Positions 25,441 to 59,153 of a DNA stretch of 59,153 bases are shown in pieces. The translations under genes were made by a program, and so were the position numbers. Within the stretch, counting starts at the first letter, position 1. Each line of letters opens with the position of its first letter. Below the pieces are notes generated by a model. That model did not search any database. It was not told where the DNA came from and saw only the letters and a list, made by a program, of their open reading frames with translations. The DNA comes from Planctomycetota bacterium (GTDB lineage: Bacteria; Planctomycetota; B15-G4): contig JAJDER010000095.1 in the NCBI GenBank assembly GCA_029259725.1, positions 1 through 59,153 on the forward strand. The letters run 5' to 3'.

Positions 25441-26208
25441 ATGCTCCGCAACACCGCCGTTCCGTCCGCGCTGCTCCTCGCCGCGCTCCTGACGCTGGTC
25501 CCCTCGAGCCCGCCGAGCCCGCCGAGCCCACCGGGCGCCGAGGGCATCGAGATCCTCAGTGACGACACGCAGTACATCGTGCGCGTCGACCCCGACGAGG
25601 GTGGCCGGCTCACCGAGTTCCTACGCCTGTCGCAGACACTGCTGGGCCAGCCGATCAAGTACAGCCCGGCCGAGGTCGCCGACGTCCGGCTGCGCTTCGC
25701 CGGCGACCTCACCTGTGCGCGCGAGGACTTCCCCGGCCTCTTCGAGAGCGTCATGCGGTCGTACCAGTTCGTCGTGGCGACGCGAAGCCACGACGGGGGT
25801 GCGTTCCTCGAGGTCCTGCGCCTCACGAATGGCGGGCCACCCGGCAGCGGCCGCCTCTCGTGGGCGCACACGGTGCTGCTGCAGCCCGAGGAACTCGAGA
25901 CGCCGCCCGCGATCCTGATGCCGTTCTACACCGTCGTCTTCCCGGTGAAGAACACCGACGCGCGCGGCATGATGGCCAGCCTGCAGAGCATGATCGACAC
26001 GACCATGGAGAGCATCCGCAACGTGGACTCCCACGCCCTGATCGTGACGGCGAGCCTCGACCACCTGCGGTTCATGGGCAAGCTCATCGCCGCCATGGAC
26101 GAGACGGCGGAGGACCGCGTCGGGCAGATCCAGGAGTTGCAGCAGAAGGTCGCGGCCCTCGAGGCGAGACTGAACCGCCTGGAGACGCCGTCTCCCGCCG
26201 GGCGCTAG
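25441..26208 (+). CDS. Exported secretin-N-domain-like protein, without secretin barrel (paralogue 2)
   Basis: 255 residues; GAGAGAGGGG precedes the ATG. Signal peptide followed by a Ser/Pro repeat (SPPSPPSPP). The first module (LTEFLRLSQTLLGQPIKYSP, DVRLRFAGDL) aligns with paralogue 1. The second is a better secretin_N match: TVVFPVKNTDARGMMASLQS, then NVDSHALIVTASLDHLRFMG. It ends in a short coiled coil (QIQELQQKVAALEARLNRLE), which suggests oligomerisation. The stop codon TAG lies inside the left terminal repeat of the 184-bp foldback element. No secretin barrel is present. Confidence 0.78.
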   Translation: MLRNTAVPSALLLAALLTLVPSSPPSPPSPPGAEGIEILSDDTQYIVRVDPDEGGRLTEFLRLSQTLLGQPIKYSPAEVADVRLRFAGDLTCAREDFPGLFESVMRSYQFVVATRSHDGGAFLEVLRLTNGGPPGSGRLSWAHTVLLQPEELETPPAILMPFYTVVFPVKNTDARGMMASLQSMIDTTMESIRNVDSHALIVTASLDHLRFMGKLIAAMDETAEDRVGQIQELQQKVAALEARLNRLETPSPAGR

Positions 26209-26387
26209 CCTGGACTTCTCACCAGCTTCTGCTGCGGAATCACCAGGGCCTCCATGGCTGCGTCGAGCGGCGCGGTCGATGCGCGACGGGGTGTGCACCC
26301 CGCCTCCGCGTCGACCACGCCGCTGCTCCTTGCCACGAAGGCCCTGGCGCCCCCTCGCGACGAAGCGGGTGAGAAGTCCAGGCTAGC
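26204..26387. repeat. 184-bp foldback repeat with 20-bp terminal inverted repeats, copy A
   Basis: GCTAGCCTGGACTTCTCACC at 26204-26223 is matched by its exact reverse complement at 26368-26387. Inside, further complementary blocks lie on nearly the same axis: CCAGGGCCT (26243-26251) with AGGCCCTGG (26339-26347), GGTCGA (26274-26279) with TCGACC (26311-26316), and CGGGGTG (26287-26293) with CACCCCG (26296-26302). The whole element can therefore fold into one long imperfect hairpin. Each end carries CTAG, which could be a duplicated target. It lies between convergent genes and contains no credible gene. Copy B begins at 59020. It may be a MITE, a palindromic intergenic repeat or a bidirectional 3'-end structure. 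Confidence 0.88.
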
Positions 26388-26402: not shown

Positions 26403-29081
26403 TCATCCGCGTCGAGGACGCCGCTCCGGCTTCGCGGCCAGCGGGTTCTCGGGCCAGGCGTGCTTCGGGTACCGGCGACGCAGCTCCTTGCGCACCTCGG
26501 GGTAGGTGTTGGCCCAGAAGCTGGCCAGGTCCTCGGTGACCTGCTGCGGGCGCATGTTCGGGCCGAGCAGGTGCAGCAGGACCGGGATACGCCCGCCGCC
26601 GACGCGCGGCGTCTGCGCCAGCCCGAAGATCTCCTGGATGCGCACGGGCAGCACCGGAGGCCGGCCGGGCGCGTACTGCAGGCGCACGTGGCTGCCGCTG
26701 GGAACCTCGATGCGCTCCGGTGCCTCGCGGTCGAGCGCGGCGCGCTGCTCCCACGTGAGCGTCGACGCGAGGCGCTCGACGAGCGGCGCGCGGCGCAGCT
26801 CCGCGAACGAACGCAGGCCTCGACACAGCACCGGGAGTCGCGCGCTCAGCTCCTCCGCGTCGAACAGCGGGAGCTCCAGCTCGGGGCGCCATCCGGCGAG
26901 GCAGCGCACGCGGGCGAGCCAGTTCTGCACGTCAGGGTTGGCGAGATCGAGCGCGCGGTCGAGCTGCTCGCCGGCCGCCGCCGCCAGGGTCGCCGCCACG
27001 GCGTTCTCCTCCGGGAGCTTCGCCGGCGCCGATTGCAGCACGAGGTCCTCGAAGCGCACCTCGCGGACGGCGCTCACGCGCTCTCGGGCGGAGTCGAAGA
27101 CGGTGCGCACCTCGGTGACGATCCGGTGCTCGGGGAGCCAGCTCCGCTCGACGGCCGAGGCCTGGCGCACGAGCGCGTCGTGCCGGGTGTCGGGGCGACC
27201 ACCGGCCGAGACCCCCGTGACCTCCACGGCGACGAAGAGCTCGGCGTCGTGGACCGCGCTCCCCGGATCGAGCCGCACACCCCGGCCGCCGGCCAGGACG
27301 GCGCGGGCGGGGTCGTCGTCGCGACGACGGGCCAGCCGATCCGGAAAGGCCGTGAGCAACGCGCGTCGGAGGGCGACGTCCTCGTCCTGGTGGGATCCGG
27401 GCCCGCGCGCCGCAGGCTCGCTCAGGCGTGACGCCAGCCGCGCGAGCTGATCGCGGCTGCGCAGCACGAAGCGTGCACCGGCGGCGTGGATCTCCCCCGC
27501 GGAGGTCGCCCGGCGTCGACCCTGCTCGAACTCCTGCAGCGCGCGCACGCGATCGACGACATCGGAGTCGGAGCGATGCTCACTGGCCCGACGGGCGGGT
27601 GGCCGCCGCGTGAAGGGATCCCGCTCGGCCAGCAGCGCCGCGGCCAGGGCGACCAGCTCCGGGATGCCGAGGCGCGTGCCCTCGACCAGCAGGCGCGCGA
27701 GCCGCGGGTGGACCGGCAGCTTCGCCAGGGAACCACCCGTACCCGTGATGACACCGTCCTCGAGCGCCCCGAGCCGGTCGAGCAGCTCCAACGCCTGATC
27801 CACGGCGCGTGCCGGCGGCGGTTCGAGCCACGGCAGCGCCGACACGTCGCGCTCACCCCACGCGAGCAGCTGCAGCACCGGGCCGGCGAGGTCCACGCGG
27901 CGCAGCTCCGGCTCCTCGACCTCGGCGCGCGCGCGATGCTCGTGCTCGCTCCAGAGGCGCAGGCACACGCCGGGGCCGAGCCGTCCGGCGCGGCCGGCGC
28001 GCTGATCCGCCGACGCGCGGGAGATGTCCGCGAGCACGAGGCGGTCGAGGCCCACGGACGGATCGAACCGCATGACCCGCGCGAGCCCGGTGTCGACGAC
28101 GGCCGAGACGCCCTCCACGGTGACCGAGCTCTCGGCCACGTTGGTGGCCAGGATCACGCGGCGTCGAGGACCGGCGCGCAGCGCGTCGTCCTGCTTCTCC
28201 GGCGGCAGGTCGCCGTAGAGTTCGACCACGCGGACGCCGGGGGTCGAAGCGTCACCGGCCGCGGGACCATCGGCCGCGGGACCATCGGCCGCGGGAGCAC
28301 CCGCCGCCGGGCCACCCGCCGCTCGGAACGCCGCCGCCAACTCCTCGCCGGTGCGGCGGATCTCCCCGACGCCCGGCAGGAACACGAGCACGTCGCCCGC
28401 CGTCCGCCGCAGCATGGCCACGGCTCCCGCGGCGGCGGCGCGATGCACGGGCTCGTCCCGGTCGCGTCGCGCCCAGCGCATCTCGACCGGATGCAATCGA
28501 CCGGCGCAGCTCACGAGCGGTGCGCCCAGCGCGGAGGACAGTTCCTCGCCGGCCAACGTCGCCGACATGACCACGAGCTTGAGGTCGGCGCGCGCGTCGG
28601 CGCGGACACGTCGCACCATGGCCAACGAGAGGTCGGTGTCGAGGTGGCGCTCGTGGAACTCGTCGAAGACGACGGCGCCGAAGCGCTCCAGGAACGGGTC
28701 CTCCTGGAGCAGGCGCACGAGGACGCCCTCGGTCACGACGAGCAACCGCGTGTCGCGGCCGGCCTTGCGGTCGAAGCGCACCTGGTAGCCGACCTCGTCG
28801 CCGAGCGCGACGCCGCGCTCCTCGGCGATGCGACGGGCGGCGGCCCGAGCAGCCAGCCGACGGGGCTCGAGCACGATCACGGCGCGGTCGCCGGCCAGGC
28901 CGGCATCCAGCAGGGCCGGCGGCACGCGCGTGGTCTTCCCGGCGCCGGTCTCGGCCTGCAGCACCGCCGCCCCGTGATCCCGCACGGCGCTCAGCAGCTC
29001 GGGGAGGACCGCATCGATCGGGAGGGCCACGCGCGCCGGGCGGGCGCGGTCACCGGAACCGGGATTCACGACGGGCGTCAC
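26403..29081 (-). CDS. hrpB: ATP-dependent RNA helicase HrpB
   Basis: 892 residues from a GTG at 29081; E. coli HrpB has about 809. DEAH-box superfamily 2 helicase: Walker A AETGAGKTT (43-51), box II DEFHERHLD (from 141), VVMSATLAG (motif III), LATNVAESSVTVEGV and QRAGRAGRLGPGVCLRLW (motifs V and VI), followed by HA2 and the HrpB_C domain ending in WPENPLAAKPERR. An Ala/Pro/Gly-rich insertion (AAGAPAADGPAADGPAAG, near residue 265) is encoded by 15-base repeats at about 28258-28310. A GTG at 29030 would align better with other HrpB N-termini (ALPIDAVLPELL), and a 13-bp hairpin covers the 29081 start, so the shorter form is possible. Confidence 0.92.
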   Translation of the reverse strand: MTPVVNPGSGDRARPARVALPIDAVLPELLSAVRDHGAAVLQAETGAGKTTRVPPALLDAGLAGDRAVIVLEPRRLAARAAARRIAEERGVALGDEVGYQVRFDRKAGRDTRLLVVTEGVLVRLLQEDPFLERFGAVVFDEFHERHLDTDLSLAMVRRVRADARADLKLVVMSATLAGEELSSALGAPLVSCAGRLHPVEMRWARRDRDEPVHRAAAAGAVAMLRRTAGDVLVFLPGVGEIRRTGEELAAAFRAAGGPAAGAPAADGPAADGPAAGDASTPGVRVVELYGDLPPEKQDDALRAGPRRRVILATNVAESSVTVEGVSAVVDTGLARVMRFDPSVGLDRLVLADISRASADQRAGRAGRLGPGVCLRLWSEHEHRARAEVEEPELRRVDLAGPVLQLLAWGERDVSALPWLEPPPARAVDQALELLDRLGALEDGVITGTGGSLAKLPVHPRLARLLVEGTRLGIPELVALAAALLAERDPFTRRPPARRASEHRSDSDVVDRVRALQEFEQGRRRATSAGEIHAAGARFVLRSRDQLARLASRLSEPAARGPGSHQDEDVALRRALLTAFPDRLARRRDDDPARAVLAGGRGVRLDPGSAVHDAELFVAVEVTGVSAGGRPDTRHDALVRQASAVERSWLPEHRIVTEVRTVFDSARERVSAVREVRFEDLVLQSAPAKLPEENAVAATLAAAAGEQLDRALDLANPDVQNWLARVRCLAGWRPELELPLFDAEELSARLPVLCRGLRSFAELRRAPLVERLASTLTWEQRAALDREAPERIEVPSGSHVRLQYAPGRPPVLPVRIQEIFGLAQTPRVGGGRIPVLLHLLGPNMRPQQVTEDLASFWANTYPEVRKELRRRYPKHAWPENPLAAKPERRPRRG

Positions 29082-57649: not shown

Positions 57650-59008
57650 ATGCATGCACACCTCGCTCGGGCCTGGGTCCTCAGCCCCGGTCTCGTCCTC
57701 GTCCTGTGCCTGGCTCCGCTCGCCGCTGCGTCGCCCGTCGACGAGGGCGAGCCACTCGAGGCACCGGCTTCCGAGGAGAAGGCGGCGACCAAGAAGATCC
57801 GAGCCGCGTTGAAGGAGTACCGCAAGCGCGTCCGCGACGTGGAGAAGGAGTACTACGCGATCATGCTGGACGCGACCGGCATCTTCGACGTGGTCGGCGC
57901 GGACCACATCGTGGCCGGAGCGACCGTCTCCATCCCGGAGTTGATCGACGCTTGGGACACCGTCGAGGCCGCGATCGCCGCGTGCAGCGACGAGTTGTAC
58001 CTCGACGTCGACGAGGGCCAGATCCTGAGCGGCTTCGAGGGTTCCGGCGGAGGCGTGGTGCGCCAAGCCTACGCATCGATGGAGGACACCCTGTGCCGGA
58101 CACAGGTGCGCATCGAACGGCGACTCGGCAAGCTGGGCAAGAAGGCCGACAAGGCCTGCTGGCCGGTGGTCCCTCTGGTGAGGATCACGGGCCTGCAGGG
58201 CGGCCGATCCCACGGGAGCCCGTTCACGGCGGATGCTCCGGCACCCGTGGCGGCGACGATCGTCGCCGCGTTCGACCGGAGTGCCACCGGATGGTTCCGC
58301 AATCTGCAGCCGGGCCAGGTCCCCGTGATCCGCGTCGACGATGACGAGAACCCGCCCTTCGTGGACGAACTCGAGCTGGACGAGAGCGGGTCGTTCACGA
58401 CGGAGAACTACCTTCTCACCAACGGCTCGCCCCGGACCTTCACCCTCGGCGTGCGCGACGCCGAGGGCCATGAGACCTGGCTCGACGAGGCGCGCATCGC
58501 GGCCCGGACGTGGGTCGTTCCCGGAGGCCCGACCTCCGTCGCCGAGTGCCCGGCGCTGTCCGAGGGCGAGGCCTCGGGGTCGGGCACGGTGACGCTGGAC
58601 GCGACGGAGTTCGTCTTCGAGCTGATCGCGGGCGACGCCATCACGGAGAAGGGCGTCGTGACCGGCATCGGCACGCCTCCGATCGCCGTGCAGGGCTCCG
58701 ACCCGGCGGCCACGATCGCCTTCGCCCTGTACAACATCGACGGCCAGGAACTCAGCCCGGGGACCCTCACGGTGCCGCTCGCCGGATCGGCCGGAGCCGA
58801 CGTCATCTGGGTCGACGAGACCGGGACCTACACGGGAGGCCAGGGCTCGGGCAGCGTCGTCGTCCTGGCGGTGGCGCACGATGCGCCGGCCCAGGTCTCG
58901 GCGATCGAGTTCACCTTCGACGTGGTCCTGGGCGACGGCGTCGGTGGCGAGCGGATCTTGACCGGGGCGCTGGAGGGCTGCCTCGCACACTTCGAGCCGG
59001 GCTCGTAG
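57650..59008 (+). CDS. Secreted protein of unknown function
   Basis: 452 residues. Signal peptide (LVLVLCLAPLAAASP). An N-terminal helical part (about 45-190) has a charged coiled-coil start (ATKKIRAALKEYRKRVRDVE) and a second helical block (TQVRIERRLGKLGKKADKAC). The rest is beta-rich: an Ig- or sheath-like segment (about 190-300) and a C-terminal domain with repeated strands (GTVTLDATEFVFELIAGDA, VSAIEFTFDVVLGDGVGGER), where the motif F-F(E/D)(L/V)x-GD-Ix-K/E recurs. No family was recognised. Element copy B begins 12 bases after its stop. Confidence 0.72.
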   Translation: MHAHLARAWVLSPGLVLVLCLAPLAAASPVDEGEPLEAPASEEKAATKKIRAALKEYRKRVRDVEKEYYAIMLDATGIFDVVGADHIVAGATVSIPELIDAWDTVEAAIAACSDELYLDVDEGQILSGFEGSGGGVVRQAYASMEDTLCRTQVRIERRLGKLGKKADKACWPVVPLVRITGLQGGRSHGSPFTADAPAPVAATIVAAFDRSATGWFRNLQPGQVPVIRVDDDENPPFVDELELDESGSFTTENYLLTNGSPRTFTLGVRDAEGHETWLDEARIAARTWVVPGGPTSVAECPALSEGEASGSGTVTLDATEFVFELIAGDAITEKGVVTGIGTPPIAVQGSDPAATIAFALYNIDGQELSPGTLTVPLAGSAGADVIWVDETGTYTGGQGSGSVVVLAVAHDAPAQVSAIEFTFDVVLGDGVGGERILTGALEGCLAHFEPGS

Positions 59009-59019
59009 CGGACGCCGAC

Positions 59020-59153
59020 CTAGCCTGGACTTCCCACCAGCTTCTGCTGCGGAATCACCAGGACCTCCATGGCTGCGTCGAGCGGCGCGGTCGATGCTCG
59101 ACGGGGTGTGCACCCCGCCTCCGCGTCGACCACGCCGCTGCTCCTTGCCACGA
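59020..59153. repeat. Foldback repeat, copy B (cut by right edge)
   Basis: Bases 59020-59153 match 26205-26338 of copy A without gaps at 131 of 134 positions; the differences are at 59034 (C for T), 59063 (A for G) and one in the GATGCKCGACG segment. The left terminal repeat begins CTAGCC as in copy A. The right arm is outside the window, so symmetry cannot be tested here. It starts 12 bases after the stop of the gene at 57650-59008. Confidence 0.88.

Follow-up and report, generated by a model that had tools for sequence, protein, structure and literature searches.

A 174-bp foldback element at positions 26209–26382 of the window (the whole stretch of 59,153 nucleotides analysed here) is most probably a MITE of the IS1380 family, whose transposase is PF13701 (DDE_Tnp_1_4). 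We put the probability of this reading, in which the element is non-autonomous, is mobilised in trans and lands in YTAR tetranucleotides, at about 85%. MITEs and IS1380 elements are both kinds already known. In the open-access literature, outside which most of the subscription papers lie, we found no IS1380-type MITE with a conserved structure spanning phyla or with a habit of landing at stop codons.

The initial annotation had described a 184-bp, gene-free foldback element with perfect 20-bp terminal inverted repeats (TIRs), and the foldback is real. Positions 26204–26223 and 26368–26387 are exact reverse complements, no gene lies inside, and the predicted fold of the 184 nucleotides, a check proposed at the time, is a single hairpin of −129.6 kcal/mol against −79.0 ± 4.5 in shuffles (z = −11.3), none of the 200 shuffles folding as well. 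The DNA fold of 26209–26382 gave z = −8.2. The repeat of 20 bp is exactly complementary but composite: the true TIR has 15 bp (CCTGGACTTCTCACC, perfect), next to it stands the CTAG of a target-site duplication (TSD), and the outermost G/C pair (26204/26387) is a chance complementary flank. The features of the locus and its second copy are as follows.

25441–26208, forward strand: host gene with weak Secretin_N similarity (below the Pfam cut-off)
26205–26208, no strand: left TSD CTAG, of YTAR type, whose TAG (26206–26208) is the stop codon of the gene at 25441–26208
26209–26382, forward strand: MITE body of 174 bp, one long imperfect foldback, probably IS1380-type and non-autonomous (155.7 bits with covariance model R1, model positions 1–175)
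26209–26223, forward strand: left TIR, CCTGGACTTCTCACC
26228–26237, forward strand: left internal-loop motif L1, conserved, TCTGCTGCGG
26257–26265, forward strand: left internal-loop motif L2, conserved, GCTGCGTCG
26326–26334, forward strand: right internal-loop motif R2, conserved, CTCCTTGCC
26354–26363, forward strand: right internal-loop motif R1, conserved, CTCGCGACGA
26368–26382, reverse strand: right TIR, the reverse complement of the left
26383–26386, no strand: right TSD CTAG
26403–29081, reverse strand: convergent host gene hrpB (ATP-dependent helicase HrpB), complete, its stop 16 bp past the right CTAG
59020–59153, forward strand: second copy, with TSD CTAG at 59020–59023 and the body from 59024

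The second copy, noticed already in the initial annotation, is 98% identical to the first and stops at 59153, where the contig ends within the repeat; the open reading frame upstream of it has its stop codon TAG at 59006–59008.

The CTAG at either end is a duplicated 4-bp target of YTAR type. Among 121 element pairs from many genomes, a few of them spurious, a left tetranucleotide other than CTAG equalled the right one in direct orientation in 16 pairs, where permutation gives an expectation of 1.9 (p<1e-4); an inverted match occurred once among the same pairs. Since these other tetranucleotides match directly so far above expectation, CTAG is to be read as the duplicated target, and the reading of CTAG as part of the TIR is ruled out. 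The matching pairs included CTAA, TTAA, TTAG, GTAG and CTAT, and further, unrelated copies in a later set carried TTAG/TTAG, TTAA/TTAA and CTAG/CTAG. Of the two duplications suggested at the outset, 4 bp or TA, the former is thus retained and the latter dropped: 4-bp matches exceed expectation, and the 2-bp TA-only duplication of the IS630 type was not found.

The TIR points to IS1380. Of 392 genomes of the phylum, 23 carry it, and in G129/G357 it is directly followed by a transposase gene of the type PF13701 (DDE_Tnp_1_4). In Singulisphaera the IS1380 elements that have these ends are intact or nearly so and show YTAR duplications, and in Bryobacterales and others identical or near-identical ends lie beside a DDE_Tnp_1_4 transposase; what the MITE shares with the IS1380 copies of other genomes is the same 14–17 nt at the ends. 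The autonomous elements are bounded by TTAG/TTAG and CTAG/CTAG around the full-length Singulisphaera copies and by CTAA/CTAA and TTAA/TTAA in G129. In the source genome of the window (G000) a single gene matches PF13701 (507.9 bits) and is free of stops; the IS1380 element around it is intact, measures 1.7 kb, has perfect ends of 20 bp (CTAGCCCGCATCTCTCACGA) and is flanked, like the MITE, by CTAG/CTAG. Its ends agree with those of the MITE at only 10 positions out of 14. In G013 another variant, ATTCAY, is common to the MITE ends and those of the resident IS1380 element, and the two genomes together are suggestive of MITE ends that may co-vary with the resident transposase. No PF13701 match was obtained in G005 and G002, which have many copies and assemblies that are 87% and 90% complete; this fits older, decaying copies and is also the main gap in the IS1380 argument.

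The initial annotation had proposed a search for a full-length insertion sequence with the same ends; IS1380 elements of Singulisphaera and G129/G357 have such ends, and the resident one has related ends. Its reading as a MITE family with a duplicated 4-bp target stands, but the IS5-like (YTAR target) or IS630-like (TA target) parentage it suggested does not, and we regard such a parentage as very improbable. IS5 is known for short CTAG-type targets, and a 4-bp YTAR duplication alone cannot separate IS5 from IS1380. In several genomes, however, IS1380 elements that have both transposase and TSD carry a matching TIR, and 4-bp matches such as CTAA/CTAA and TTAG/TTAG exclude the TA duplication of IS630. 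MITE and IS1380 insertion sequence have in common inverted ends of CCYGGAYTTCTCAC type, the 4-bp YTAR duplication and one intact member of the family in the genome. They differ in that the MITE is without a transposase gene, measures 174 bp against about 1.7 kb, and has a conserved foldback core with motifs (L1/R1 in subterminal position) that none of the IS1380 copies examined contains. IS1380 transposases have been described as distant prokaryotic relatives of piggyBac (PMC10140906). If this kinship is taken from the literature, the MITE compares with the eukaryotic piggyBac transposons and their MITEs in its TA-centred 4-bp duplication, which is TTAA in piggyBac and in some copies here, and differs from them in being bacterial and in a target relaxed to YTAR with CTAG preferred.

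The copy-number check suggested by the initial annotation gave about 20 copies in the source genome, not two: 9–10 of the copies recovered were complete, many others were halves lying at contig ends, and the distinct junctions came to 17 left ends and 20 right ends. Most of the complete copies are 95–99% identical to one another. The assembly consists of 195 contigs and is 84% complete, and many contigs end inside the element, as expected of a dispersed repeat. Within the same bacterial family, G005 has about 25 copies in two subfamilies that are 79–83% identical to the element of the source genome, G002 has tens of old copies that were mostly missed by DNA search, and G001, G003 and G004 have few copies or none. 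A copy in Phycisphaerales bacterium OFTM8 (L186:3739–3912, JAJDDM010000165.1) is 98% identical to that in the window. The DNA flanking it is only 75–78% identical to G000 and G004, and the OFTM8 copy suggests either that the element recently passed from one genus of the family to another or that the genera have an active lineage in common.

Full-length relatives were found with covariance model R1 in 16 of the 58 planctomycetes scanned, including G029, G056, G011 and G013, where DNA search gave none, and Acidobacteria, Myxococcota, Nitrospira and Fermentibacteria have similar elements. At E<1e-3 the matches of the model in 845 kb of host DNA were the known copies and one further site (L285:1076–1241, source-genome contig C186), a degenerate relative of 44 bits that was detected by the covariance model alone and is apparently an old insertion. 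At another locus (L362:322–496 and 501–678, on contig C24 of G002) two structurally matching elements lie head to tail a few bases apart, possibly one element inserted beside the other. Minimal palindromes of 44–48 bp, consisting of little beyond two IS1380-type ends and bounded by CTAA/CTAA or CTAG/CTAG (or partial) duplications, were seen in Lentisphaerae, Sedimenticola and Fermentibacteria (L228:6993–7036, L205:2435–2482 and L162:2299–2346). The gammaproteobacterial MAG MO_133.B26 harbours a separate MITE family of 240 bp (in JASJBY01, e.g. L183:189–428, L217:4720–4959 and L237:3297–3535), which has the same IS1380-type ends and is not a symmetric foldback.

Empty sites, which the initial annotation had also proposed to look for, were found, one of them with base precision. 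The OFTM8 copy follows a gene that ends in ...CSTCHDADH and TAG, and the orthologue in G004, which ends in ...CHDVY (...CGACHDVY) and TACTAG, has a single CTAG at the same stop and no element; this base-precise case is one locus, seen on one flank. Orthologues of RluD in five genera and of MBOAT in G002 end at the same or nearly the same residue without the element, and no element lies downstream of hrpB in G002 and G003. A TIR-like match near hrpB in G003 (L273:4010) was rejected as a chance match, having two mismatches and no hairpin.

Most of the copies are located at the 3' ends of genes, and the target itself offers a reason, as YTAR reads TAR on both strands, that is, a stop codon (TAG or TAA) in either direction. 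Coding frames were judged with a codon-usage model, for which G000 and G005 each supplied 400 kb of training sequence, and a stop was accepted strictly, when it closed an open in-phase frame that was the best of six frames. CTAG is rare in the source genome, with 0.153 sites per kb against about 2.6 per kb computed from base composition at 71% GC (about 17-fold rarer), and gene stops account for about half of those that remain. A gene stop codon lay inside the TSD in 22 of 28 complete copies, compared with 62 of 126 control CTAG sites (Fisher p=0.004); counted by junction side the numbers were 40/84 and 62/252 (p=9e-5). At one locus (L002) the two flanking genes converge, and each of them stops within the copy of the duplication on its side. 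Genes that end at copies are of full length, with Pfam and NCBIfam profiles that reach their ends (ExbD, MatE, DUF819, HATPase_c_2, LGIC), and because the TSD copies a pre-existing CTAG, the stops predate the insertion. In the lower-GC gammaproteobacterium MO_133.B26 junctions were mostly noncoding (16 of 26) and at a stop in only 6 of 26; landing at stop codons is pronounced only in genomes whose CTAG sites are concentrated there.

Such a location could also be expected of a domesticated bidirectional 3'-end element, the other reading entertained in the initial annotation, whose hairpin would terminate transcription or protect the mRNA 3' ends of convergent genes. That copies do lie at gene stops, often between convergent genes, and that the hairpin is extremely stable, with conserved pairing, would agree with this. 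The CTAG target alone, however, goes far towards predicting their position, since half of the control CTAG sites are stops, and orthologous genes in relatives do without the element. With respect to the adjacent gene the copies are oriented at random (12 L : 13 R and 12 L : 10 R), and a scan for terminators or promoters returned nothing, neither a T-tract nor the G+C-rich stem followed by a T-run of an intrinsic terminator. Random orientation and the missing T-tract argue against a directional 3'-end signal or an intrinsic terminator. Of the 3'-end reading, which we hold to be improbable, the location is kept and the function is not supported; a target that is itself a stop-codon motif largely explains the location.

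Conservation of the element extends beyond its ends. An alignment of 11 divergent elements from Planctomycetota, Acidobacteria, Myxococcota, Nitrospira and Fermentibacteria, with about 60% identity where measured, yielded one consensus hairpin with compensatory changes in 30 of 50 pairs. With 43 further matches from freshly fetched loci (alignment A4) compensatory change was found in 42 of 50 pairs and the covariation score was 0.475 against 0.06–0.10 in slid controls, figures that are favoured by the fitting of this alignment to the covariance model. Most copies keep a length near 174–178 bp, and L1, L2, R2 and R1 are kept in most of them while the TIR varies. Rfam held no family above gathering score, giving only sub-threshold long-hairpin miRNA models and tRNA-Sec. 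The initial annotation would have yielded to a finding of two copies only, no empty sites and inner pairing not conserved elsewhere; some 20 copies, empty orthologous sites and strongly conserved pairing were found.

Covarying helices and conserved loops, together with a TAG-containing tetranucleotide flanking the hairpin, are also what a REP/REPIN-like element would present if an HUH transposase (Y1, RAYT-type) moved it in the form of single-stranded DNA; selection on a hairpin whose unpaired motifs are conserved would then be accounted for. GTAG-tagged REPs, likewise structured palindromic repeats, occur in Planctomycetes (PMC3733652). The tag of REPs is fixed and their target is not duplicated, whereas the tetranucleotide here varies between copies and is directly duplicated, as is done by DDE transposases, and the element ends match a DDE family. 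To our knowledge HUH enzymes make no direct target duplication, and we consider this origin extremely improbable. With NEMIS/Correia, RUP, ERIC and Nezha the element shares the nature of a short gene-less hairpin repeat between genes; it differs from them in its ends and in a single architecture of near-constant length with covarying helices in several phyla.

The compensatory changes may have arisen without selection on the fold. Quasipalindrome correction is a known mutational process, in which template switching between the arms symmetrises a palindrome, and it would give two-sided changes neutrally. The same process should, however, symmetrise the internal loops, and L1/R1 and L2/R2 have stayed unlike each other and conserved across phyla. 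Because template switching leaves these persistent asymmetric loops unexplained, we find it a rather unlikely account and lean towards a functional folded form, in which the folded or cruciform state may matter for mobility or host tolerance. More tentatively, and at somewhat less than even odds, the elements could make up one structured mobile family of about 175 bp, described across phyla by a single covariance model, in which the fold and its internal loops are under selection while the terminal repeats diverge. Its core would be a functional hairpin (cruciform, single-stranded DNA or RNA) serving mobility or host tolerance, and would be carried by different IS1380-type transposases to targets that are stop codons on both strands.

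In the mechanism that we propose, an IS1380-type DDE transposase would act in trans, recognise the CCYGGAYTTCTCAC ends and paste the element into YTAR, best of all CTAG, duplicating 4 bp. As either strand of YTAR reads TAG or TAA, a gene hit at its stop would keep that stop whole, whichever side it lies on, because one copy of the duplication stays with it. Where CTAG is depleted in a high-GC genome, gene stops make up about half of the targets, and insertions there could be silent and costless and so accumulate.

The covariance model makes copies findable where sequence search fails, as in G029, G056, G011 and G013. Conservation over bacterial phyla of the secondary structure of a MITE, beyond its ends, is unexpected for a DDE transposase that cuts double strands. 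A duplicated target that is a stop codon on both strands would explain, simply and in a way open to test, how a gene-dense genome can be filled by a transposon with no damage to genes.
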